Of a DNA stretch of 64,000 bases, positions 27,681 to 50,730 are shown piece by piece (positions within the stretch are counted from its first letter, which is position 1; every line of letters starts with the position of its first letter). Below the pieces are notes generated by a model. The model did not search any database and was not told where the DNA came from. It was given only the letters and a program-made list of their open reading frames with translations. The stretch is from Aurelia coerulea (Eukaryota > Cnidaria > Scyphozoa > Semaeostomeae > Ulmaridae), in contig CM076957.1 in NCBI GenBank assembly GCA_039566865.1, positions 13,959,896 to 14,023,895 on the forward strand, in the 5' to 3' direction. A program made the position numbers and the translations under genes.

Positions 27681-27681
27681 C

Positions 27682-28652
27682 AAGGGTGTTAGGACACGGA
27701 TATTTTAATTGCGTATTTATTTACCTTGTTTTTATCTTCGTCTTGTTTTCTTGTCTTGTTTCTTCTCTGTTCTGTTTCCTCTTGCTGATGTAAATGCCTC
27801 GTGTTATTTGAATATATCTTCCTTGTATTCCTGTGTCTTAGCGCGCCTTCGTAGAAGAAAGATTTTTAAACCACAATGCCATATAGACTGATGATATGGT
27901 CGTAGTTATCGCTATTGAAACACTGCCGGACGCTCCTAACTACGACTCATAATCAAACGCCATTATTTTGAAATGACTATGACTGCCTCGTTTCGATAAG
28001 GGCCTAGGCAGAATAGCACAAACATTTGTAGTTTTCAAATGAAACACATTGATTTGAAAACTTCACAATAAATCAGTTAATGCTTAGCGAAAGCAGCAAA
28101 ATAGTACCTACGTACCAGATTTGATATTGTCGCCAACTGTTTTCATGGTATTCTTGTTCGTAAGACTTTGTTTTGTCCGGCCAAGCTCCTTCAAACTCTG
28201 CTTTGAGCTTCGAGTTTCCGTTGGTCAACATCAATCAATCGAATTTGCAGAGATTCTAATGGCGTTGTATTTGGTTGTATACTTTGTACATGACTGTGTA
28301 TAGCAGCCTCGTTCCCAAGGGCGTTCAAAAGTGAGTCAAATTATGAGTCCCAGTAAGAGCGGTCTCGGTCTGGCGTAATAGTCTCGTTTTGGATAGCGAT
28401 TACTGGGACTCATCGTAATCAGTCTAAATGCCATATTAAATACTAATTTAATATGGCATTGTGGTTTAAAAATCTTTCTTCTACGAAGGCGTGCTAAGAC
28501 ACAGGAATACAAGGAAGATATATTCAAATAACACGAGGCATTAACATCAGCAAGAGGAAACAGAACAGAGAAGAAACAAGACAAGAAAACAAGACGAAGA
28601 TCAAAACAAGGTAAATAAATACGCAATTAAAATATCCGTGTCCTAACACCCT
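27682..28652. repeat. Palindrome with ~200-bp arms, centre holding a transposon
   Basis: The left arm 27682-27883 (AAGGGTGTTAGGACACGG … CCACAATGCCATA) recurs inverted at 28449-28652. Once the element at 27884-28426 is set aside, the arms are separated by only a few bases near AATACT, an almost perfect palindrome of about 420 bp. The identical open frames seen on opposite strands here are a by-product of the symmetry, not genes. Confidence 0.85.
27884..28426. mobile_element. MITE with 9-bp target duplication, TAGACTGAT family
   Basis: AATGCCATA flanks both ends (27875-27883 and 28427-28435). The ends are TAGACTGATGATATGGTCG and, inverted, TAGACTGATTACGATGAGTC, both continuing to a shared ATCGCTAT. 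A 9-bp duplication is typical of Mutator-like elements, though other superfamilies cannot be excluded. 543 bp, non-coding. The left terminus matches the larger element at 18607. Confidence 0.75.
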
Positions 28653-28893
28653 TGGCTTTATTTGCTTTCAGTGAATTTGGCTTTTTCCTACGATATTTTT
28701 GGACAATTTGCAATTGGGCAAGGTTTGTCCCAAAAACTGGTTGTATTTGCACATGTCAGCACTGGTTCTTTTCTGTTCAATGGCAAGACAAAGCTGACAT
28801 TGCCATTATTTCCAGATTCAAGAGACATTCTTTGGCTTTTTTCTTCAAATCTACGGGCAAAAAAATTATGCCGTCGTTGTCCAATAGGTACGT

Positions 28894-29020
28894 AAAAACT
28901 GGGAGGGTTTCGGCACTTCTTTGGGACAGAGGTAGCACCGCTGTACATTCAATGTCCGATCCCATGCAAAAACTGGGTGGGATTTGGCACTGAGTTGGGA
29001 CAGAGGTAGCACCGCTGTAC
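28894..29020 (+). repeat. Two 53-bp direct repeats
   Basis: 28894-28946 and 28968-29020 share AAAAACTGGG, TTGGGACAGAGGTAGCACCG and CTGTAC. A weaker third relative lies at 38753. Just downstream, CGCGCATGATA- and CGCGGGAAAGGGTA-type strings recur at 38570-38690, so this belongs to a dispersed repeat family. A GC palindrome (GGGCCCGCGCGGGCCC) follows near 29108. Confidence 0.75.
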
Positions 29021-29159
29021 CTGAAATCTCGGGGGGGCCACTTGGTACCTGATGTGTTATCATGCGCGTACAAAAAAACGCGGGAAAGGGTACCTTTTCT
29101 CACATTAGGCACGGGCCCGCGCGGGCCCGCGTTTAGGGGTGCCAATTTTGCCATAATCT

Positions 29160-29965
29160 AAAAAAGGGTGTATTTTCTACACTTGATCATTTAATATTTC
29201 TTCTGTAATAATATTTTCAATCAAGCGTCTTAGAATAAAATTTGAAACGAAACAAAGCGCTCAGCAGACTGGCAAAACATTGCGCAATTGATTGGAGTTC
29301 GGCAGCAGTGTCCTCCTCTCCAATGGTTAGGTCGCTCTCCTCCGCAGAACTGACATTCCACCACTCCACTCTACAAACAAAGAATTGGTCCTGAGAGTTG
29401 AGAGATTTGCCTGTCACGCACGATGAGGCCCTCGATCTTCTGAACGAAATTTGTGAGTATTTAACAATCAATTTTTGGAGAAACTTATGTTATTGCTTTG
29501 ATTTACAGGATTTGTAAAATTAGTTTCTTGTTTGCCAATATTTTTACTGGGGATCGTCTGTTGATGATGTGGGTGACTCAGGCCAAAATGGCTAAACACG
29601 TATTTTTTAATGAGAAACAAAGAATTTGAGCCCATACTGAAAGTTTCTTAAAGTGCACCTAAACCCAAAATGTTTTATCCTTGATTATGATAGAGGGCGT
29701 TGAGCTGAGTTGAAAACCGAAAACCGAATTGAATTCCGATGCGTGGTTCCGGAGTTATGCCCCACTAAAGTCGCGTTTTTGGACAATTTTTTGTGGACAC
29801 TGCCGGGCTATTTTGACCAGTCTGGAGTCTGGGGCGATAGCGGATGTGACGTCGACTCAGGTATACACACTCAGGTCTCAGTGTAGCCTAAGCGATTTCG
29901 CAGTCAATTTTAGTGCCAGTGGTGGTTGCAGAAGGGAGGAAGGCAAGAAACAACGCAAATCTGGT
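29160..29965. other. No supported gene
   Basis: AT-rich with one short minus-strand frame (29217-29471) that I cannot assign. Confidence 0.35.
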
Positions 29966-29967
29966 AA

Positions 29968-30420
29968 ACAGATACGTGGCTGCTAATTGTGGGAATACTC
30001 ACTGCAAAAAATGACAAAATTTCGGGAAATTTTGGGGAAACGGACACTTTCCCCATAATTTCCCAAGAAGGAAATGGAACTGTCTGTTTCCCTTCAATTT
30101 CCCAGATAAACTTGTCCGTTTCCCTTAAATTTCCAAGCAGAAACTAAAGGGAAATTTTGATATTTTTGCAGTGACTTCAGATTTAAAGAATGGTATAACA
30201 TTGCATGCTATTCCGTTTCATGGCAAAGAAAATACAACTGCAAAGGAAATACAACTGCAAAGGAGAGACTACGTGAATGGATAGCGTTCGTGAAACAAAA
30301 ACGTGCCAAATGGGAAGCTTCGACAGCATCTTGTTTGTGCTCAAAACACTTTAAACCCGAGGATTTCTTGAGAAGATTTAACTGGTCTGAGTTGCTTGTC
30401 AGTTTGACACTCATTTCGGT
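29968..30420 (+). pseudogene. THAP-domain fragment interrupted by a MITE
   Basis: The pieces read as a C2CH THAP DNA-binding domain: VAANCGNT before the MITE, SDLKNGITLHAIPFHGKE after it, then LREWIAFVKQKRAKW and SCLCSKHFKPEDF with the C-x2-H pair. A 17-bp tandem duplication (30230-30246 and 30247-30263) shifts the frame between the second and third parts. The first Cys of the motif is not visible. THAP domains bind DNA in P-element transposases and in host regulators. This copy is broken, and no catalytic part follows. Confidence 0.7.
30000..30173. mobile_element. CACTG-ended MITE inside the THAP fragment
   Basis: The ends are CACTGCAAAAAATGACAAAATTTC and, inverted, CACTGCAAAAATATC. ACT is repeated on both flanks (29997-29999, 30174-30176). 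CACTG-type ends with a 3-bp duplication fit the CACTA/Chapaev-like group. The interior is made of TTTCCC- and GGGAAA-rich subrepeats. 174 bp, non-coding. Confidence 0.75.
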
Positions 30421-30424
30421 CTGC

Positions 30425-32300
30425 TATCGAAACCCTTGGAACGCTTACACGACACAGGCGAAATGAAACTCAGGTTGACCTGAAACGCGGTTTCTGAGGT
30501 CGGTCAGATTTTTCAGGTCGATCTGAAATTTTCATTTGAGCAGAACGCATTGTTTATATTCTCGAAAATTTTGATAAGGCAGAAGATAAAATGATAACAA
30601 ATAGTGAAAACTCAAAAAATCATGCTGAGAAACAGAAATGATATAAGCAAAAAACACCAAGGGAGGGTAATGCTAGTAATGCCAAGATTCCCGTTGCTCA
30701 GAGTTCCTCCGAGGCGCAAGGAAGGTCCGAGGCGTATATTTTAGAGTCTTAGTTGATGGAATGTGGTTTTTAAAATCATACTGAAATGACTAGAAACTCA
30801 TAACTAACCTTACCTAATACCACTCTGAACTCTGTTTAGAAGGAACATAAAAAAATGTCAAGCCAAGTAACAAGATTCACCAAGGGGCGCCACTAAGAAC
30901 GGGCCTAATTTTTCACTGATCTTGTTTACGTACCTGCACAGATGTTCTGCTTCCAATTCCTAACCTTCCGCTTCATCCTCCATAATAACACGTTCTTCAG
31001 GCGATAGGACATCACATAATTTCTATTAAAATCTTTATTGGTATTTTTTAACACTTTTCTCCTTGGGAACTCTCTCTAAAAACCCCTTTGAAAGAACATC
31101 CATGATCATAAGCCTAACTGTAAATGAATCACAACAGTCAACGAAATTGACCTGCTGACACTAAAATCACAAAGACTCCACATTTTTGTACGAACACCCT
31201 ATTAACATTTGACAACATTGGAAAGCGGATTCTTTATGCTTTTCAAACATCCTAATTGTTCCATTCAAAACGTAATGCTACCCAGGAGAATTACGTCATC
31301 TCTGCTGGACGTAAAATGTCGCTCGCCAATGAGGAAAGGACACCTTGTGCGGTCGAGAGATGAAGTTGGCGTCATACCAATTCCAACAATCCATGCCGAG
31401 AAACCTACAACAGACGACTGTAAGGAGGTCTGACTCAAACAAACTCTTTTTTGGTGCATTTTATAGGAACTTTGACTTCGTCTAAGCTTCGATATGAACG
31501 CCTCAAAACAACTGGTTTATGACAGCGATCAATTCGTTCGATCATTTGTCATCCTGAGTGGTCGTCACTAGTTCCCAGGCTGTAGGTGCCCGGTAGTGTC
31601 CACAGTCCAAGCTCGACAAAATGCATTATAAAACGAGTTTGGAAAATGATTTTGGAAAATTTTTTTGGGTAGAATAGCATTTCTTGATGAGTTCTATCGG
31701 AAAATGAAATAAAAAATTTTGGGTTTATGTGCACTTTAATATCATCAGGTTGTCTCCACTGAGAGTTTCTTGGTAGTTTCTTACAAGTTTCATACCAATC
31801 TTCATGTTCACTGTGACTTCAAGAACATTTCAAAACAAATTTTTTGAACTTGAAACCTTTCCGATGCTCATTGAGTTCGACCTTGCTCAAGCACCTTCCG
31901 AGATATAATATATGAAACGGGAAACCAGTAAAAACAACAATCTTTCCACGGATTTTCTTCGTAAATACAAATACAGTAGTTTCTTAAGTTATATGTTCCC
32001 AGTACTGGATTTCTTAATATATTGGAGATCGAGTTAAATTTCTTATAAGCGGTTTCTTATTAAAAAATACGTGTTTATGCTGGTCGTGATGTGAATAGGG
32101 GAAACATTAGTCAAGAACTTGAATATTTTGACGTTCGAAATGTAAAGAATCTGTCACGATAGGCTGTTTACAAGAGCGAACAACTGTAACCAGGAAGGAA
32201 GAAACTATAATAATTGCAGAATTTAGGAATGCATTTCGTCGTTTCAGGAAAGCATAATTCAACCATATTTGAAACTTTTTCAGCTTTCTTTCAATATCAT
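30425..32300. other. Non-coding stretch upstream of the B-box gene
   Basis: Near 30460-30540 several TCAGGT-x-GATCTGAAA-type inverted strings occur. From about 31740 to 32090 lies a relative of the inverted repeat in the B-box gene's first intron (shared CAGTACTGGATTTCTTAAT and AAAAAATACGTGTTTATG strings). No gene is supported. Confidence 0.4.
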
Positions 32301-32314
32301 ATTCTGTTGCTGAC

Positions 32315-34726
32315 ATGGAAAACCAAATAAAATGCGATGAATGTGACGAAACCGATGCAACCACGATGTGCTATGATTGTGAATTAATTTATTGCGAACA
32401 GTGCTTCTTAAAGATTCACAAAAAGGTATGAAGTCTTATTTTTTTAAAGCAAGGGAATTTTGTTATAGCGCATACATAGGAGGTCTCAACCCTCAAGGTG
32501 GTTCATCTGTCTGGGTATCAAAAACTCTTATATAAGGAACCCTCCCGGAACCCTTCAAAAGAAACTCAACTCTCAGATCGCCAAACACTGAGAAATTCCT
32601 GTACTGGAAAACATTATTCAGGCAATCAAATTTTTTTTCTCGAGGCTCTCGTCAAATTGGCACAATCTGCTTGCTCGGGGATGTCCACGAAGATTGATAC
32701 TGTTTGGAGCTGGTTAGGAACTCGTAAGAAACTATGAGTACCCGGTCTTGCTCAAAATCTTGATTTTGATAAAAGATATGTGCATCGACTAGATTTTTAA
32801 TACTAATAATTATGTTCGTTACCTGCCCCCTCCTAAAATTTCCAAACAATGTTTTTCGAAACCTTTCTAATGTTTAGACATTTCTCGAGTACCTTCCGAG
32901 TAATGTGATACAGAAACCGAGTGAAAATACAAAAGCAAAACTATGCTAAGGATTTGCTTTATTAAAATACACGTATGTTTCCTGTATCTTGAGTAACGTC
33001 TAAACATTGAAAAAGCTTAGAAAACCTTATTTTGAAATGTTCACCAGAATACAGGTAGTGAAAATGAAGATCGCTATGGAACCTCTTACTCAAAATCTGA
33101 TCATTTTAAGAAACTCACGGTGCTGGCCAAAATTCTTTGTTTCTTATAAAAAATACGTGTATTTAGTTTCTTGACTAATATTTTCCAGCACTGGAGTTTC
33201 TTAATTTTTTGGCGATCTGAGAGTTGAGCAGCATGGGAAGGCGAATCTTCTTTACAACTCTCGCTGAACTATTGAGCAACTAGAAGCACACAATTTTCGT
33301 TTCAGCTTGAAAACAAAACATTTCTATCCAGCAATTTATGATCAGTAAACTTCATTCTTTTCTTTAGGGAAGACTACAGTTCCATGTGCGATCGTCAAAA
33401 ATGTGTGACTCGTGTGAAGAAAGATTAGCAAAATTTTCCTGCATTGATTGTGATCTAGGTAAGTCAGATAAGTCACCAGGATTCCATCTCAAAATTGTCA
33501 AAATATTCAGGAAAATCTTTGACCGTACGAATGACACTGCCAATGTACTGTATGTATAATTTGATGGGCTGCACCAGTACTGTGGATCTGCGAATGAAAG
33601 ATGTTGCTGCTCCATGCAAAGCCAAGCCACTCCGTTTATTTTACTTTGACTGCGAAGGTCAAGAGAAGTTTTTCACCCTTCTCTATTTGTTGATTTATTT
33701 CTTTGCTCCGATGTTTTTCCTTTTACGGCAATTTTTATTTAAAAACTAGTCAAATCTGAATTTTTTCTTTTAAATAGGAACTTCAGACAAAATTTGCATT
33801 TGTAATAAGATCTCATCTTTTCTTCTTGATGTGTAGATTATTGCCTCAGTTGTCGTGATTCAGTGCATCGCAAAGGAAAACTCAAGGCGCATGAAATATC
33901 AGCAATGACGAACAAAACAGCAACATCACCAGCGAAATTGCCAGCACAGTCTACTGTTAATAATCCTTCATCTACCTCTTCCATGGAAATTTCACTGCCC
34001 AGTGCAGAAATTTCAGATGATTTTGAGGGAAAGCCAAAACATCTAAAAGATATCGACCAGGATCAGATTAATTACGGTGAGAGGAAAAGTCTCCCAGAGG
34101 AGCAATCAAGTGCACCCATTGCAATTGACAACGCAGAGGTTGGGGAATCTGACGGTGAAATTGATAGCAGGAGCTCTCATATTGAGTACCAGCATGCAGA
34201 GAGAATACTCAACGAAGCAGTTGTGAAGGGGAAGCTCAATCGAGAGCACTACAATATTATCACAAACGAGAGAAAGGAAGCAATGGTGCATTGTCTGCCT
34301 TGCAAGCAGAATATTGCACTAGGAAAGGCGTACAAGGCTCTTTCAAATGTTTTTGCCCATACCAGAAGACCGCACCATCAACGATCAGTCAGCAAGTTGA
34401 ACGACTCTGCACTGAGAAAAAGGGCGCATGGTGAAGAAGTTCCACACATTGATGCAAAGAAGCAAAGATTAGAGGCAGCTGTATTGAAAATGGAAAAGGT
34501 TTATGAGAAAGTGAAGAATGAATATGGCATCAATACGTTCCATTTGATGAAGCAAAATGAGACGATAATGTGCAGTTATTGCATGTCTCGTTTTAATATT
34601 TTCCCTGCGCGGGGAGATTTATTCCATAACATCAAGTGTCATGTCGATTCTTTTGAGCACAAGAAGAAGGTAGCTGAGGCTAAGCCACAAAGAATCATTT
34701 CATCTTTTTTTAAGAAGGGATCTTGA
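32315..34726 (+). CDS. Tandem B-box / zinc-finger protein with PIP-box-like C-terminus
   Basis: Three exons: 32315-32425, 33368-33458 and 33837-34726, with introns GTATGA..TTTAG and GTAAGT..GTGTAG. Phases 0 and 1 join without a break, giving 363 residues. The start ATG has the context GACATGG. Residues ~7-36 form a B-box-like Cys/His cluster (CDECDETDATTMCYDCELIY…), and ~49-86 a second (CDSCEERL…CIDCDLDYC). After a Ser/Thr- and acid-rich linker, CxxC at 220/223 with His near 242-248, and CxxC at 313/316 with His at 331-342, look like zinc fingers. QRIISSFF at 352-359 fits the PCNA-binding consensus Q-x-x-h-x-x-F-F. It ends at TGA followed by CTAG, and the frame stays open into the transposase-like ORF. 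The function is unknown. DNA or chromatin binding is inferred. Confidence 0.75.
32500..33240. repeat. Inverted repeat within intron 1 of the B-box gene
   Basis: CAACTCTCAGATCGCCAAA with GTACTGGAAAACATTATTCA near 32566-32625 recurs inverted at about 33170-33226. Weaker pairing continues inward, so a MITE-like foldback of ~0.7 kb sits in the intron. A related half-copy lies upstream at 31740-32090. Confidence 0.55.
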
Positions 34727-34730
34727 CTAG
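34724..34730 (+). promoter_or_regulatory. TGA-CTAG stop, candidate readthrough signal
   Basis: The B-box ORF stops at TGA (34724-34726), followed by CTAG. UGA-CUAG is the best documented efficient readthrough context in metazoan genes. Downstream the same frame is open for 18 codons (Cys- and Tyr-rich) up to the first ATG at 34781, and then for 1043 more. Whether the ribosome actually reads through is inference. Confidence 0.55.
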
Positions 34731-34780
34731 ATGAACAGGGAGAATGTGGCAAACTTTGTTATGGTTATTACAAGAAAACC

Positions 34781-37700
34781 ATGAAATATGGAAATCAGAA
34801 TTATGATATCAACTTTCTTTACAATGAAGAACCTGCATGCAACAGTAAACAAGAGGCACTTTGGTGCATTGAAAAACAGAGAATCATACCTAGCAGTGTG
34901 AGTAAAGAAAGTCAACTGGGAACAATTAGGAGTCCTTCATGTTTTCAAGTAACTTATGATAAAAGTTATATTTGTTTCGAGTGTCGAAAGCTTCCATGTG
35001 TGCCTAGTCTAAGGCTGAGAGTTTTACGAAAGGCCAAGTGCAAAATTAGGAAAGTTAATCGTGTAAACAATAGTCGCCTATCGAACAGAGAAAGGCTGTC
35101 CAAACTAGATGCATATCGAAAGGCTATGTGTAAACAGAGAATGAAAGTTGCAAGAGCAACAAAAAAATTCCTACGTTTAAAAGGAAAATTAGCAACATAC
35201 TCCGATTTAATGGCAGAGCAGGGTCTTCGTGGTGATACTGCAGCAATGTCAAACAGCCTTAGAATGGCACACACAAAAGGACAGGCAGAAGGAAGAGGGA
35301 AGACTGCCATATTTGTGAAGAACATTATCACAAATATGCAGAAGAAACCGAAAGGAAAGCGATATTCAAAATTCACGAAGTCGATGTACGAAGTAGCTAG
35401 GATCTGGGGAGGTTGGCGCATGGTGAAGTTTTTCAGTGAAAACTTAGACGGACCTGGAGAAGGAACAATTAAGAGAATCTGCCGAGCAACAACCAAGAAA
35501 GGCATCGAAGGGGGATTTCAAACATCTCATTTAAAGGATACGAAAGAAATGTATAAAAATTTAATGAGCCAACACAAAGTTGATGCAGTTCTTGTCGAGC
35601 AAGCTGAAGATGAAACATCGATAATAAAATTGTTGCAGTTCATGCAAAAGCAAGATAGGATCGTGGGCTCCTGTGGAAAGAAGGGTGTTGGCCACAAATG
35701 CAATCCCAGCTACCACCTCGTGGTTGGAGATACGTCAGATGCTTACAAGAAAATTGAAGACTTTTTTGAGGAAAGTGTGGTGTCACACATGGCTAGGGTA
35801 ATAATGCTCAACCCACTTCATGTGAATCTTCCTCCTTTTGTCATTTATTTGGCACCTACTTGTAACATATTTAACCACGACGATGTAAAAGATCAATGGA
35901 GGCAGGTCCAAACAATTTACAACGAACATCTACTAGAAATATTTAAGGCACCTCTCGTAGCTAAGGCATCTGATGGAGATTCTCGGCGGCGGAAGGCCAT
36001 GGAAATGTCAGCCAAGTCAAATGATGGAGAAAGATTCACAATTGGAAGTCAAAATTTTACGCTGAGTGGACGGATTGAGCGAGATGCACATGGAGTTATT
36101 TGCTCCTTGAACATTATGAATCAAGACTATATTCACAATGGAAAGAAATTAACGTATCCGCTAGATCATGCAACACGACGTCTTTGCCTTGGCGGGCACA
36201 CAGCTCATATAAGCCACTTGGAACTCGTACATGAAAGATTTTCCTCTCATGAACATGGTCTAAGAATTGAAGATATCAAGAGAACAGACAGACAGAATTG
36301 GGGATCAGCACAGAGGCTTTTCTTCCCTCGTGTACGTGAGTGTCTAAAGAAAATAGAGAATGGTGAATCAGGGCGCAAAGAAGACGTAAAAGGAACGACA
36401 GTGTACCTTGACCTGTGTCATATGTATGTTGAGATATTTTGTTCCTTCAAATTAGGGTTGTTGGAAAGAGTCCATAACGCATCCACAGTGACAAATTTTT
36501 TAAGGATTTGGCGCAGGTGGATTTTTAAGCAGAAAGAATTAAATCTGAAGAATAATTTCTTAACTCTTCAGTGCTATAAAGATATATGCCTTTCGTGCCA
36601 TGCTGCTGTCCTTCTCATAAAAGCAGGAAGAGAATTTACTCCTACACAGGCTGTACCTTTGGCAAAATCGGGCAGCGATTGCTGCGAGGATTTTTTCTCA
36701 CAGAATGGATCCTGGGTAATGAATAAGCACAATTACACATTTGGAGACATGCTAACAATGTTGCCACAGATGAACAGAATAAATGAACTAAGGGCTGATC
36801 CTGATGGCCCTAGCATTCCAAAGGGTCATAAAAAGCAGGTCAACATATGGGAAAAAGGAAATGAAATTCAAGTAAATGGTCCAGACCTTACTGACTATCC
36901 TGATGATAAATCAATTGTGTCTGCATGGGAGAAGGGTTTAGAGACAGCCCAAAACATGTGTAAAGATTTAGGCATGTCCCCAAGACAGCAAACAGAGGAG
37001 GATGAAAATCTTTGGTTTACACAACCTCATGTTTTTAGCGACAAAGAGGACAGAATCATCACTGAAGAAATGATCGATGAAGAGGTAACTGATAAAACAG
37101 AACCATCCATGAATGCACAAGATTTAGACATGGCAAATGCTATTCGCCACGAAATGGAAGAAGATCTCCACGACCAATCTGATGAAATTGCTGACCATAA
37201 GTACTCCCCAACTATTCAAGTACCTGGAAAGAGTTTCTCCATACATAAATCGACTTTGGTATCAATGCTGAATAGTAATGACGGAGAGAAATTGTCGAAG
37301 GATAGGCTAAGAAGAGTGCAAGCGAGTAAATCATTTGGAAAAACACAGGTTGATCAACCTAGCGATATAGTGAACGCCAATCATAGAAAAGTTATAGGAC
37401 TTTATTCAGACATAGCAGTACTCGAAACTTCGAATAAAAAGTACCTCCATGTTTTTGGCCGGGTACAGAGGCTAATAAAAGTAAACAAACGGGGAAAAAC
37501 GGAGTACAAGAGGCCAGTGGACCTTGATGAACATTCCAAGGAAAACATTCAAGTGCATGTTGTTGTGTATGAACAGGAGGAAATGCAATGGTGCTACTGT
37601 CCAGGGAGAACAAAGGTCGTTCACATATCAAATGTAATAATGGGTGTTGAACTAAATGTAAAAGAAAATGACAAATATGAAGCAAATGAGAATGATCTCA

Positions 37701-37912
37701 AAGATCTACAAAAATACATAAATAGTAAAAATGAGAAACGAATTAAGCGAAAGCACAACAATTTAGAGACCAGGCAGCAAACAGTGGAAACCAATAATGA
37801 GATCGAGCAAGGAAGCGACGGCAGGGTAGTCGTAGTTGCAGAGCCAGATGTCAACTTATCAGGGAGTAGGAGATCATCACGTAGCAGGAGATGCGTAGTT
37901 TTTGACACTTAG
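34781..37912 (+). CDS. P-superfamily-like DDE transposase protein
   Basis: An intact 1043-codon ORF on the same strand and frame as the B-box gene. Residues ~54-73 hold a Cys cluster (SYICFECRKLPC), and ~98-200 are basic and helical. RYSKFTKSMYEVARIWGG at ~194-211 resembles the helix-turn-helix of P/THAP9-type transposases. Candidate catalytic acids by position are D277/E278 (AEDETSI), the D398/D400 region (KASDGDSRRR) and E636 (GSDCCEDFFSQNG). Between them a long helical segment includes RTDRQNWGSAQRLF, like the region after the insertion domain of P transposases. The C-terminal third has an acidic stretch and ends in SRRSSRSRR. The family call is by pattern only and could be wrong. It may be an active element or a domesticated host gene. 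No terminal repeats were found around it. An initiation at 34781 is possible, but fusion by readthrough is attractive. Confidence 0.6.
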   Translation: MKYGNQNYDINFLYNEEPACNSKQEALWCIEKQRIIPSSVSKESQLGTIRSPSCFQVTYDKSYICFECRKLPCVPSLRLRVLRKAKCKIRKVNRVNNSRLSNRERLSKLDAYRKAMCKQRMKVARATKKFLRLKGKLATYSDLMAEQGLRGDTAAMSNSLRMAHTKGQAEGRGKTAIFVKNIITNMQKKPKGKRYSKFTKSMYEVARIWGGWRMVKFFSENLDGPGEGTIKRICRATTKKGIEGGFQTSHLKDTKEMYKNLMSQHKVDAVLVEQAEDETSIIKLLQFMQKQDRIVGSCGKKGVGHKCNPSYHLVVGDTSDAYKKIEDFFEESVVSHMARVIMLNPLHVNLPPFVIYLAPTCNIFNHDDVKDQWRQVQTIYNEHLLEIFKAPLVAKASDGDSRRRKAMEMSAKSNDGERFTIGSQNFTLSGRIERDAHGVICSLNIMNQDYIHNGKKLTYPLDHATRRLCLGGHTAHISHLELVHERFSSHEHGLRIEDIKRTDRQNWGSAQRLFFPRVRECLKKIENGESGRKEDVKGTTVYLDLCHMYVEIFCSFKLGLLERVHNASTVTNFLRIWRRWIFKQKELNLKNNFLTLQCYKDICLSCHAAVLLIKAGREFTPTQAVPLAKSGSDCCEDFFSQNGSWVMNKHNYTFGDMLTMLPQMNRINELRADPDGPSIPKGHKKQVNIWEKGNEIQVNGPDLTDYPDDKSIVSAWEKGLETAQNMCKDLGMSPRQQTEEDENLWFTQPHVFSDKEDRIITEEMIDEEVTDKTEPSMNAQDLDMANAIRHEMEEDLHDQSDEIADHKYSPTIQVPGKSFSIHKSTLVSMLNSNDGEKLSKDRLRRVQASKSFGKTQVDQPSDIVNANHRKVIGLYSDIAVLETSNKKYLHVFGRVQRLIKVNKRGKTEYKRPVDLDEHSKENIQVHVVVYEQEEMQWCYCPGRTKVVHISNVIMGVELNVKENDKYEANENDLKDLQKYINSKNEKRIKRKHNNLETRQQTVETNNEIEQGSDGRVVVVAEPDVNLSGSRRSSRSRRCVVFDT

Positions 37913-38438
37913 TTCGTCGTAATAGTTGTCGTATCCCTTGTCCTCTACAAATGGTTCCAATGATTTGATGGCTCACGGTAAACTCAAGTCCAATTGGCTG
38001 ATTACAAAAGACTAAATTGTGAATCTAAGTTACATTTTTCGTCGAATGTGATCATTATTTATGAAAAGTCCACCTTACCCTTCAAAATTTGCTTTCTTAA
38101 TAACTTATCAACCATTTGGCTCATCAAATTTATACTTAAAACTGTTTTATGGAAGAGACCAGAGAGTTTCCTAATTTGCTTTTTAACTGTACCGCACGTA
38201 ATTCTGTGAGCGTATTTGTCAATATTGGGCAAAAACTATTGATACTCTGATGTACGGTTCCCAGCTCACAAGATTTGCGATTTATGTATGATGAGCGTGC
38301 CACTCAGGTGCCAGAACAAGGGATCAACGGCGTTCTTTTCGTTCATGGACAGTTAGATATTTTTGCATATTGTTTTGTTGTGAGATGAACTTGTTTAAAG
38401 CCCTCAAAGATAAATATGAAAACACGTTTGTGAGATTC

Positions 38439-38444
38439 AATAAA
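38439..38444 (+). terminator. Candidate poly(A) signal
   Basis: AATAAA, about 530 bp after the transposase stop, followed by a (TA)n run. It is the first good AATAAA I noted on this strand after the gene. Confidence 0.35.
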
Positions 38445-38499
38445 TATATATATATATTTACATATATATAACTCTTTCTCCATGACTCAATATCACGCC

Positions 38500-38815
38500 A
38501 GTAATATCAACAATGTTAGTAAGGGGCTGATCAGCGATTAGGGTACCTAAAATTGACAAAAAACCAATGCGACGCGGGAAAGGGTATGTTCTCAAGAAAA
38601 TTTTCCGCGATTAGGGTATGTATTTTGTCAAAGTAGGTCAGCGTTTAGGGTCCATATGTTATACCTTTGTACGCGCATGATACTATAGGAAAGTATAGGA
38701 GTGGCCCCCCCCCCCCGGGCCTGAAATTCATCTTTGTTAATTTGCAAGATGCAAAAACTGGGTGAAATTGCTGCAACAAAAAGGACAGAGGTAACAACGC
38801 GTTATCTATTATTGT
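38500..38815. repeat. Dispersed repeat related to 28.9-29.1 kb
   Basis: It shares GACGCGGGAAAGGGTA, TACGCGCATGATA and GCAAAAACTGGGTG-type strings with the repeat at 28894-29100, in a different order, and holds a C-run at 38706. Confidence 0.5.
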
Positions 38816-39022
38816 ATGTGAAAACTTTAAAGTGGCTAGAAACTAAGAGGAAGAATGCAGTGTTGCCTGAGAGAATGTCCATAATTTGGTGGTGAGCAAT
38901 TATGTCCTCAAAACTTGGCTTTTTCTAAGTTGTGTAGCATGGACTTCGGTCAAGACCGGGTTGGTTTATTTTTGTTCTCAGGACAAAAAAGGTGGGGTCA
39001 CAAAATTTACCGTACTTGACCG

Positions 39023-39488
39023 CCCATGGGTCCCGGGGGGGGGGGGGGGGGGGGGGGGGGGGTACTGATATGTTTTTCAGTACGGGGACGTGCCGCCGAA
39101 CAAGGTATCATTTTCAGGATTCCTATTCCGGGACAGGGTATCACTTTTGTATGGTCGGCTCCATGACAGGGTCCATATTTTGTATAATTGACTACGTATC
39201 GTCGTTGTAAGCCATTTGCACTCCGCAAATATGATTTAAATCGTTTGGGTGGCAACATTTCCGCTTTTTCTGATAGATTTCTATCAAATGTCTATCAAAT
39301 TCCCAGGGCAGGCTACAATTTTGTATGAAGAATCCCAAGGATAGGAGATTGTTTTTAAAGTATTACTCCGGGACAGGGTATCATTTTCGGGAATTTTACT
39401 CCGGGACAGGGTGCCTTTTCAGATTTTCCAGCGGCACGTCCCCGTATTTTTGTAAATCAAGTACCCCCCCCCCCTCCGGGCCATGGGT
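39023..39488. mobile_element. MITE with poly-G/poly-C edges
   Basis: The left end CCCATGGGTCCCGGG leads into a run of about 28 G and then GGTACTGATATG. The right end, inverted, reads CCCATGGCCCGGAGGGGGG and GGTACTTGATTT. Both continue to TACGGGGACGTGCCGC. Inside, CCGGGACAGGGTATCA recurs three times. No coding capacity. The homopolymer length is probably unstable and may be mis-assembled. Confidence 0.7.
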
Positions 39489-39499
39489 AAACATCTAGG

Positions 39500-40600
39500 A
39501 ACCAATGGAATTCCGACTGACTGTCTGGCCTTAACTGTCTGGTAACTGTCCTGTCGAAGCCACAATGGAACAAGGGAAACATCTCATGAAATGTGAAGGA
39601 GCACCCACGAAGGACAAGTGAATGAGCGAACAATCTAACAATCTGATGAAAGATGAACGTCTTTTCGTCTGCACCTTTGTATCGCATAATCAATTTATTA
39701 AAAAGCATTTTATCGTTTATTGTTACGATATTTTACTCCAAGAAAATCACAACAGATGATAACTCAGACGACAGCAGACATCTCGAAATAAAGATTGGAG
39801 ATGGCAGCAGTGCACACCAAGCCTCTGCTCACTTAGGCCCTCATGTAAGTGATTTTAACGTATTCATTCACCACTCACTGCTATTCACTGCAGCCAAGAC
39901 AAATGACAGTAACAAATTTAATGTTGGAGGTCAAAATTGGAACAGACATGAATGACAAATGTATACAATATATAGGACTATACTATAATAGCCTATATTA
40001 TAGGATTAAAGAATCTTGTACGGAGAAGAATTTCTCACTGGTATGGATGGGCACTGGTATGTCTGTCTCCAAAATCAGATTCACATTCCCATTCACATTC
40101 CAAAATAGAGTAGACCTGGTCTAGGCCCAAAAAATTTTCGCAAGAGGAGAAGGTTTTTCTCGTATGGGTTTAATACTTGGACAGTATGTTTACGCCAAAT
40201 ATCTTTAGCGTGTAATGATGACCAGCAGAACAGGTCTTTGCATGGAAAAGAGCTAATTTAAATTTCCAGATCAAAATTTGTCAATATCGAGCAAGGCTTG
40301 GCTGGCTTGATTTTGAAGGTTCTGAAATGATTCCCAAATTCGACAAATATGGTAAATAAGTTCATTTCATTTATATTATTTATACAGGGTAAGTATTCAA
40401 TGTATAATACAAAAATTGATTTACAAAATGCCCTGTTAAAAGAAAGAAAAAAGCAACTTACAATATCAAGAAAAAAACTAATAAAGCGGTATCGCCCTGG
40501 TCCGTCCACTCTTTAGAAAACGAAGATTTTCTGCGAGTTCAAAGAAGTTTTGGAGAGGAACTCACCTTGAATAGGCTTCTCAACTCATGCTATAAACCTC
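39500..40600. other. No supported gene
   Basis: A 100-codon frame at 39653-39955 has no recognisable domain and no splice evidence. Nothing else stands out. Confidence 0.35.
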
Positions 40601-40619: not shown

Positions 40620-41812
40620 CCGTTTCCTTTTTGCAATACTGGAAGCACACTAAGGTTTGGTGTTCCTCAAGGATCCGTCCTTGGTCCTCTATTTTTCAAT
40701 ATCTATATCAATGATCTTCTGTTATCGATACACGAAACAGATATATGTAACTATGCGGATGATACAACCATCTATACATGCGATATGCGTCTCGAAAATG
40801 TAATCTCTAGGCTAGAAAATGATTCCAAAATCATAATCGAGTGGTTTGGAAACAATTACATGAAGCTAAACGAAGACAAATGCCATTTATGATATTTGGT
40901 GAAAGAACAAATCAAGAGGTCAACATAAATATAGGCAGCTGTGCCGTTACTAATTCAAAGGAGGAGAAGCTGTTAGGAGTTTTAATTGACGCAAATCTTA
41001 GCTTTGAAAAGCACATAAGTAATATTTGTCAAAAGGCTGGTAACAAACTCTTTGCTCTGTCACGGATGTCGGCATATCTAGGTACTGATAAATTGAGACT
41101 TTTAATGAGAGCATTTGTGACTAGCCAATTAATACTGTCTGTTGGTTTGGATGTTTCATAGCAGAAAGATGAATAACAAAATCAATAGGCTGCACGAGAG
41201 AGCCCCGAGGATAGCATATAAAGACTATAGTTCTAGTTTCGCAACTTTGCTGGAAAAAGATAGATCTGTAACAGTACATGAGAAAAATATGCAGTTGCTA
41301 ATGACTGAAATATTCAAAACAATAAATAGTCTAAACCCCCCATTTATGAATGAGATCTTTCTTCAAAGAAGTTCTGCCTATAATTTGAGAAATATTAATA
41401 CATTCATGGTTCCAAAGGTAAATACTGTTAATCATGGTACTGAAACGGTCCAATATAGAGGGCAGAGCGTATTTGGCAGTCCGTTCCACAGGAAATCAAA
41501 GATGCAAATTCTGTGCAACAATTCAAGAATAAAATAAAATTTTGGAAAAAGATGTAGATTGTGACTGCAGACTTTGCAAACGATACATACCAGGGCTCGG
41601 CTTTTTATAGTTTCATACATCTTGCTTGTAGATTTTATATATAGATTTTATGAATTTTGTAATTTTATTGACTATTTACTTGTATATATTTTGTATCATT
41701 GTATTTACTGGTATCATTGTAATTAATTTGTTGGCTTGAATTAGCATTCCTTTTTATATTCAGCTATGTAAGTTGCCAACTTTAAATAAAATGATAATAA
41801 TAATAATAATAC
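40620..41812 (+). pseudogene. LINE-E: 5'-truncated RT fragment
   Basis: It starts in the RT palm with GVPQGSVLGPLFFNIYINDL, then NYADDTTIYTCD (catalytic Asp pair), WFGNNYMKLNEDKCH, EEKLLGVLIDANLSFEKH and the C-terminal LNPPFMNEIF / YNLRN tail, ending with CKRYIPGLGF. Frameshifts near 40890 and 41140 split the frame, and a deletion affects the WQSLP-type block. The 3' end is a (TAA)n run at 41788-41812. It is the same family as LINE-C. Confidence 0.85.
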
Positions 41813-49281: not shown

Positions 49282-50043
49282 TCAAATATCATCATCATAA
49301 AAACCCAAGTTCGGAATAAAAACGCGGCATGATTTACATGGGCAATTTTCTCCGTTCCAATTTCTTATTTTTGTTTTAAACTGACAAAGAAATTCTGAAT
49401 TTCGTATAATTGGTGGTAACGTTTGCCACAGCTGTGGACCTTTAAATCGGATGCTTTCTGTCCCGTTGTTGACAGATCTCACCCTAGGTTGGAAGAATTC
49501 GTTATTGTTACGCAAATTGTAATGACTTTCATTTTCGCAGAAAATTTCGTGCATGAATGAAGGGCTCAGGCTATTTTTTGTTTTGTACATCTCAGTCATA
49601 AGTAACTGCAAGTTCTTTGCATGAATCGTAACGGCACAGTCCTTCTCTAATAGCTCACTATAAGTAGATTCGGTATCCTTATAAGTAATTCTCAGAGCCC
49701 TTTCCTGTATTTTGTTAATTTTTTGGCTGAGCTGCCTGCTGTGAAACATCCAGATTAAAGGACAGTATTGAAACTGACTGGTAATAAATGCCCTCATGAG
49801 TGTTCTTAGTTTGCTCTGATCCATGTAAGGGGATATGCGAGCAAGTGCATAAAGTTTATTGCTAGCCTTTTGACACAATTTGGAAACATGATTACCGAAG
49901 GAAAGTTTGCTATCAATTTGAACTCCGAGTAGCTTCTCTTCGGAGCTATTTACAACATCAGCATTTCTAATCCTTACAGTAACAAGATCATCACACCTCT
50001 GCCCAAGAACCAAAAGATGGCATTTATCTGCATTTAATTTCAT
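49282..50043 (-). pseudogene. LINE-C RT thumb and C-terminal tail
   Basis: MKLNADKCHLLVLG opens the region after the YADD box. EEKLLGVQIDSKLSFGNHV, LIWMFHSRQLSQKINKIQER, RFKGPQLWQTLPPIIRN and the terminal CPCKSCRVFIPNLGF follow. The frame is the same as that of the RT part at 50086, separated only by TAA just upstream. Confidence 0.88.
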
Positions 50044-50085
50044 AAAGTTGTCGGCAAACCATTCTAAAGCTACACTACAGTCATT

Positions 50086-50730
50086 TTAAAGCCTATGAGC
50101 TATATTGTCCAGGATCTTATCGCAGGCATAGATTGTAGTATCATCTGCATAATTACATATATCCGAGTTTTGAATGAAGAGTAGAAGATCATTAATGTAT
50201 ATGTTGAATAACAGAGGCCTTAAGACTGACCCCTGAGGAACACCGCGTGTGACGCTTTTCCAAGAACTAAATGACCCATTTACTTTTACTCTTTGTTTTC
50301 TATTTGTGAGGTAATCATTAATTAGTGCCAATGCTTCGCGAGAGAAACCGTAGGCGTGCAATTTTGCAATCAAAAGATCGTGTCTGATGCAATCAAATGC
50401 CTTGGACAGATCCATCAATACAGGCCCTGCTTTACCACCTTCATCAAGGCTAATTTTGAATTTTTCTAAGAGCCGTACGAGAGCATGCTGGGCACTGTAA
50501 CCTTTTCGAAATCCACAGAGAAGTGATGATAAAAAGGGTGTAATATAAGCAACTATCTGTTTATCCATTATTCTTTCAAACATCTTTGAGACCGTAGGTA
50601 GAACGCTAATTGGCCTAAAGTTGGTCCTAGAGTTGGTTGGTCCATTCTTGGGAAGAGATGTGACATCCGCACACTTTAGTTCATCAGGGAAGGACGAATT
50701 TTCTATGCAATCATTAAATATTTTCGTCAA
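50086..50730 (-). pseudogene. LINE-C reverse transcriptase core
   Basis: It contains FPDELKCADVTSLPKNG, NFRPISVLPTVSKMFERI, GFRKGYSAQHAL, LMDLSKAFDCIRHDLL (catalytic Asp), GVPQGSVLRPLLFNIYINDL (one Gly-to-Arg change from LGP) and NYADDTTIYACD (catalytic Asp pair). It ends at the in-frame TAA near 50085. Confidence 0.9.

Follow-up and report, generated by a model that had tools for sequence, protein, structure and literature searches.

The window, i.e. the whole stretch of 64,000 nucleotides of Aurelia coerulea DNA that was analysed, harbors what looks like a P-superfamily-like DNA transposon with two open reading frames, ORF1 and ORF2, which lie in one frame and are separated by a single UGA (Table 1). 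ORF1 encodes 363 residues after splicing of three exons. Its stop is the TGA at 34724-34726, with CTAG directly after it, and the exon and stop coordinates of the initial annotation hold. The splice sites are predicted from sequence and homology, and the junction between exons 2 and 3 is backed by the relative P0031, which reads CDL-QYC unbroken.

Table 1. Features of the transposon, in window coordinates.
Feature	Position	Strand	Details
Left target site duplication	29020-29027	.	CCTGAAAT, 8 bp; direct reading
Left terminal inverted repeat	29028-29074	+	outer block GGGGGGGCCACT, inner block TATCATGCGCGTACAAA; blastn of flanks, E 0.005
ORF1 exon 1	32315-32425	+	first B-box stretch; donor GTATGA
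ORF1 exon 2	33368-33458	+	acceptor TTTAG, donor GTAAGT
ORF1 exon 3	33837-34726	+	end of second B-box-like stretch, two BED-like Cys/His fingers, PIP-like motif, TGA
PIP-like motif QRIISSFF	34688-34711	+	ORF1 residues 352-359, shortly before the stop
Putative readthrough signal TGA-CTAG	34724-34730	+	sequence reading, comparison of copies
In-frame 18-codon linker	34727-34780	+	precedes first ATG; holds conserved C-x-G motif (CYGYYKKT)
ORF2, P-element-like transposase	34781-37912	+	fold comparison of model; conserved acidic residues
Right terminal inverted repeat	38666-38719	-	blastn of flanks
Right target site duplication	38720-38727	.	CCTGAAAT, 8 bp; direct reading

Anatomy of the two reading frames and of the element

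The spliced ORF1 product carries two B-box-type stretches and two further Cys/His fingers. It matches the B-box profiles ANCHR-like_BBOX (E 1e-14) and zf-B_box (1.1e-8), both above cut-off, and the B-box was found in the window copy and in P0031, the copies whose upstream exons were read. The fingers of the relative L046 match zf-BED with 31.5 bits (cut-off 20.6), the only BED match above cut-off; those of the window are BED-like. Near the ORF1 C-terminus, QRIISSFF fits the PIP-box pattern. Its strict form occurs in 2 of 14 host lineages and a shorter core in 6 of 14. P0031 and P0033, which come from sources other than the host genome, end in SSFFKRNA and SSFFKQKA and the window protein in SSFFKKGS; all three have three more residues behind SFFK.

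Beyond the TGA the linker reads LDEQGECGKLCYGYYKKT; its 18 codons lead without interruption to the ATG at 34781, and from there ORF2 runs for 1043 codons, its own stop ending at 37912 (1061 codons counted from the TGA). The protein-like character that the initial annotation had ascribed to these codons is confirmed by the relative P0032, which runs ...IASFFKHHQLPGMNRGTFCYGYYHSTVQYAGQDYNIEFLYDQQPA uninterrupted across the stop position. The C-x-G motif of the linker is common to the window, P0032, P0009, P0016, L001, P0021, P0023, and P0024, reads C-F-G in L002 and is present in all host copies except L028. The frame after the stop is open and conserved as protein and, judged by its sequence, the segment is protein-coding.

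For ORF2 itself, neither a Pfam family at E 1 nor a relevant PDB sequence match was found, and the relative P0024 reaches 13.1 bits with Pfam TNP-like_GBD, below the cut-off of 24.8. The structure model displays an RNase H-like transposase with the fold of the P element. Four acidic residues, D277, D398, D400, and E636 (numbered from ATG 34781), are invariant in 16 aligned rows and are candidates for the catalytic acidic triad; the model places them within a strand, right behind a strand, and within a helix. Residues 871-999 (37391-37777) resemble histone readers of the chromo-barrel/BAH type, at a low Z of 6.4-7.5.

In the window copy, 8-bp duplications adjoin imperfect terminal inverted repeats, the duplication being somewhat less certain because its left copy sits in a tandem repeat (28894-29030). 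In the distant relatives L001 and L002, the 46-bp terminal repeats were found, and a clear 8-bp duplication was not seen. An N-terminal THAP domain is typical of P and THAP9. No THAP domain was found in the Pfam search, which returned a B-box for the window ORF1 and BED for L046; the element is therefore named P-superfamily-like and not a P element. Signs of domestication were not noticed. Several short inverted-repeat pairs, rich in TTAAGAAAC-like sequence, are scattered over its 5' part and intron 1 (29593-33153).

Conservation of the stop codon and its 3' context

Searches of the host genome with ORF2 of the window and of L012 returned at least 46 and at least 54 matches, respectively, in overlapping sets. 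Among the fetched loci the junction was readable in 24 copies, the window included, which were grouped into 15 lineages. Pairwise comparison of 14 of these gave 23-62% identity after the stop (L011 and L006 share 60% over 60 residues), and genes for proteins this far apart should be nearly saturated at synonymous sites. In 23 of the 24 copies and 14 of the 15 lineages the homologous position is a TGA. The exception is L028, where the TGA occupies the Cys codon of the C-x-G motif and ORF1 is broken. The next codon is CTA in 17 of 24 copies (L005, L006, L007, L009, L010, L011, L012-L015, L016, L017, L019, L020, L046, L047, L052) and in 11 of the 14 TGA lineages, eight of which have CTAG. It is CTC in the four copies of the L023 family (L022-L024, L056), CAA in L008, AAA in L064, and CAG in L028. 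For the nine lineages whose frame is open over at least 175 codons upstream of the stop and at least 464 downstream, the count is CTA in seven, CTC in one, and CAA in one. Within the host genome, TGA-CTA-G is thus conserved while flanking codons vary, which is the pattern that the initial annotation had proposed to check for.

The two reading frames, or ORF2 and the remnant of ORF1, share one frame in 12 of 14 lineages. The relics L011 and L052 carry a frameshift just upstream of the stop and still have TGACTA, and L016, a relic related to L006, is in frame at the stop and loses the frame further on. L007 has an additional TAA 21 codons upstream of the conserved stop, and L019 has two stops inside ORF2. 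Four copies with the same stop are 99.3-99.9% identical and lie on three contigs. In synonymous and nonsynonymous counts between near-identical copies, which differ at few sites, purifying selection was not seen.

The information content at the junction is 2.0 bits for each base of the TGA, 1.63, 1.41, and 1.63 for those of the CTA and 1.14 for base +8; each of the nine bases before the stop has at most 0.74 bits. Leucine codons directly after the stop are CTA in 11 of 12 cases, as compared to 106 of 809 Leu codons (13.1%) in ten downstream frames. This background gives a naive probability of 2e-9; since the lineages share ancestry, such binomial figures serve as an indication only. Of the ten downstream frames, six end in TAA, two in TAG, and two in TGA, though introns or damage may account for some of these ends. 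Four frames extend to the C-terminus shared by the family and close with TAG (L005) or TAA (L006, L007, and L008), so UGA is not simply the usual stop of the family. UGA followed by CUA(G) is conserved above the synonymous background, which looks like selection on a readthrough signal.

Readthrough at UGA-CUAG was reported to reach 1.6% for LDHB (PMC4359377) and about 3.5-31% for MDH1 and OPRL1, the value of about 31% being that of OPRL1 (PMC4132726). Replacing UGA by UAA or UAG lowers it about 6- and 3-fold, respectively, and CARYYA in the OPRL1 context allows about 15% (PMC4132726). UGA-CARYYA is the other published readthrough motif (PMC4359377), and the context UGA-CAA-CCA of L008 fits it. 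By these reporter efficiencies, the family uses contexts that function in mammalian cells, namely UGA followed by CUA(G) and in one case by CARYYA. Counting against readthrough, a downstream RNA structure was seen neither in the window nor in the other host lineages.

Outside the host genome, sense codons occupy the stop position in P0032, P0021, P0023, P0024 (from a liverwort), and L001; therefore, not all members of the superfamily have the stop. According to the initial annotation, homologues with a sense codon would refute readthrough; such homologues exist outside the host genome, but within it 23 of 24 copies keep the TGA, which excludes a simple nonsense mutation of the window copy. In a tree of 32 rows the host UGA lineages fall in several deep branches, and P0021, P0023, and P0024 lie between them, weakly placed; L001, L002, L052, and L064 are among the rows flagged for long branches. 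Either the stop is ancient and some lines have lost it, or it arose repeatedly.

L002 is a very distant transposon with perfect 46-bp inverted repeats. Its ORF1 ends QTTVSDFFAASSSSSPDF-TAG at the homologous place and the same frame runs on to 5705. Directly after this TAG lies a hairpin (-35 kcal/mol, z -4.63) whose z is the fifth strongest of 458 scanned segments of this element; of the four ranked above it, one is its own overlap and three are in a Gly-rich repeat. L001 (NYYZ01000026.1), which also has 46-bp inverted repeats, and L002 (NZBA01000032.1) were both binned as Planctomycetota, and these contigs are probably eukaryotic contamination in bacterial bins. In L001 the frame changes between ORF1 and ORF2, perhaps via a short intron.

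Proposed programmed readthrough and alternative explanations

The conservation of UGA-CUA across diverged host lineages supports the proposal of the initial annotation that one mRNA yields ORF1 and a readthrough fusion. It is very probable, as far as sequence comparison goes, that this P-superfamily-like DNA transposon sets the ratio of its two products by programmed UGA readthrough. One mRNA would carry both ORF1 and ORF2. Most ribosomes would terminate at the UGA at 34724 and release the 363-residue ORF1 protein with its B-box, BED-like fingers, and PIP-like C-terminus. A minority would decode the UGA as an amino acid, owing to the adjacent CUA(G), and produce a 1425-residue fusion with the transposase at its C-terminal end. 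The abundant short protein could bind the element as a regulator, repressor, or recruiter, and the rare fusion could both bind and cut.

Two proteins might also be obtained by alternative splicing. The P element of Drosophila produces a 66-kDa repressor and an 87-kDa transposase via splicing of its third intron (PMC7776569), and a retained in-frame intron would here give the short protein, its removal the transposase. The window indeed contains an in-frame GT-AG pair over the stop (34670-34738, 69 nt), but with approximate splice-site weights an equally good in-frame pair spans 85% of 1346 codons (77% of 560 in another count). The 14 lineages vary in this fraction between 0.08 and 0.98; their best pairs measure 69-300 nt and show no common intron. 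Splicing would moreover leave the UGA-CUA conservation and the CARYYA variant unexplained, and P0032 retains the segment in a sense frame; it is considered improbable for the family. For L002, where a 48-nt in-frame pair (GTGAGT...TTTCTAG) is equalled over only 4.2% of 1530 codons, splicing may be the explanation.

Separate translation of the two proteins, by reinitiation, internal initiation, or a second promoter for ORF2, would suit the public gene model P0001, which begins at ATG 34781 and was counted against readthrough, as well as L010, L012, and L020, where an ATG lies between the stop and the conserved C-x-G motif. In the other seven of the ten lineages whose frame continues for 464 codons or more after the stop, however, the first in-frame ATG lies past this motif, so initiation there cannot yield a complete ORF2. 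The distance from the stop is 18 codons in L005, 17 in L007, and 23 in L046, and in L006 (142), L008 (106), L017 (155), and L023 (133) the ATG is beyond conserved residues. Agreement of the frames in most lineages also argues against separate translation, which would not maintain UGA-CUA; it appears even less probable than splicing. A simple nonsense mutation, acquired while the copy decayed, would agree with the sense codons of some relatives. It is contradicted for the window by the same TGA in the other copies, including the four near-identical ones, and by the openness of the remainder of ORF1 and ORF2, and hardly any weight is given to it. Selenocysteine insertion or a general reassignment of UGA is equally hard to credit: the codon concerned is the appropriate one, but neither a SECIS nor another Rfam match reached the gathering threshold in 28000-40000, UGA closes two of the ten downstream frames, and the 1061 codons after the stop in the window copy contain no further in-frame UGA.

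Programmed readthrough thus remains the preferred explanation, and it resembles several known systems in part. As compared to the Drosophila P element and THAP9, a UGA-CUA readthrough stop would truncate the protein here and intron retention does so there, B-box and BED-like fingers stand in place of the THAP domain of P, an extra C-terminal part is present, and sequence matches above Pfam cut-offs are absent. In bacterial insertion sequences with OrfA and OrfAB, a DNA-binding first ORF alone can regulate and a rare fusion, made by -1 frameshifting, is the transposase (PMC5009743), whereas the element described here is eukaryotic, belongs to a different transposase family and would use readthrough of a stop in the same frame. 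The stop and 3' context UGA-CUAG are identical to those of vertebrate OPRL1, OPRK1, MAPK10, and AQP4 (PMC4132726, PMC4359377); in these cases cellular proteins gain C-terminal extensions, in contrast to the 1061-residue enzyme of a mobile element. Retroviruses and Tj1, with their gag-stop-Pol arrangement, also balance the first product against the enzyme fusion by low-level readthrough of one in-frame stop (PMC10085805), but these are class I elements with a reverse transcriptase, unlike the DNA transposon in the window.

The components are known already. Searches of the open-licence PMC literature brought up no eukaryotic DNA transposon that combines them. If the readthrough reading is true, readthrough joins alternative splicing as a means by which a eukaryotic DNA transposon rations its transposase, here independently of the splicing control of the host. 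Where gene models or repeat libraries divide such an element into two genes, as P0001 does, the DNA-binding part of the transposase would then be missed. The family would also offer many diverged natural UGA-CUA sites, useful to learn the other requirements of the signal. A wider scenario, to which an even chance is given, holds that readthrough is an ancestral, maintained system of the animal P-like branch and corresponds in eukaryotes to the bacterial OrfA/OrfAB. The abundant ORF1, with its zinc fingers on DNA and its PIP-like motif, freed only by termination, on PCNA, would repress or direct the fusion, and the UAG and hairpin of L002 would serve likewise.

Related fragments and neighboring repeats

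Apart from the copies with a readable junction, an ORF2 piece at 36087-36522 (436 bp, 93-95% identical to the window) lies within another repeat family, in L026, L027, L029, L030, L031, L032, and L034. Over longer stretches, those of its copies that were compared share about 96-99% identity, and by this comparison the piece is a captured transposase fragment that was amplified. L018 (G000:C5, about 15270666-15273926) is a decayed copy with 95% DNA identity to 36110-37361 of the window; the subfamily to which the window copy belongs has thus undergone a fairly recent duplication. Left of the transposon lies an inverted repeat of 204 bp with 98.5% identity (27681-27884 and 28451-28654). Just right of it, a MITE-like stretch of about 465 bp (39023-39487) shows poly-G/poly-C ends and inverted arms, and a further inverted pair of about 700 bp (40659-41362 and 49539-50244) has 66% identity.
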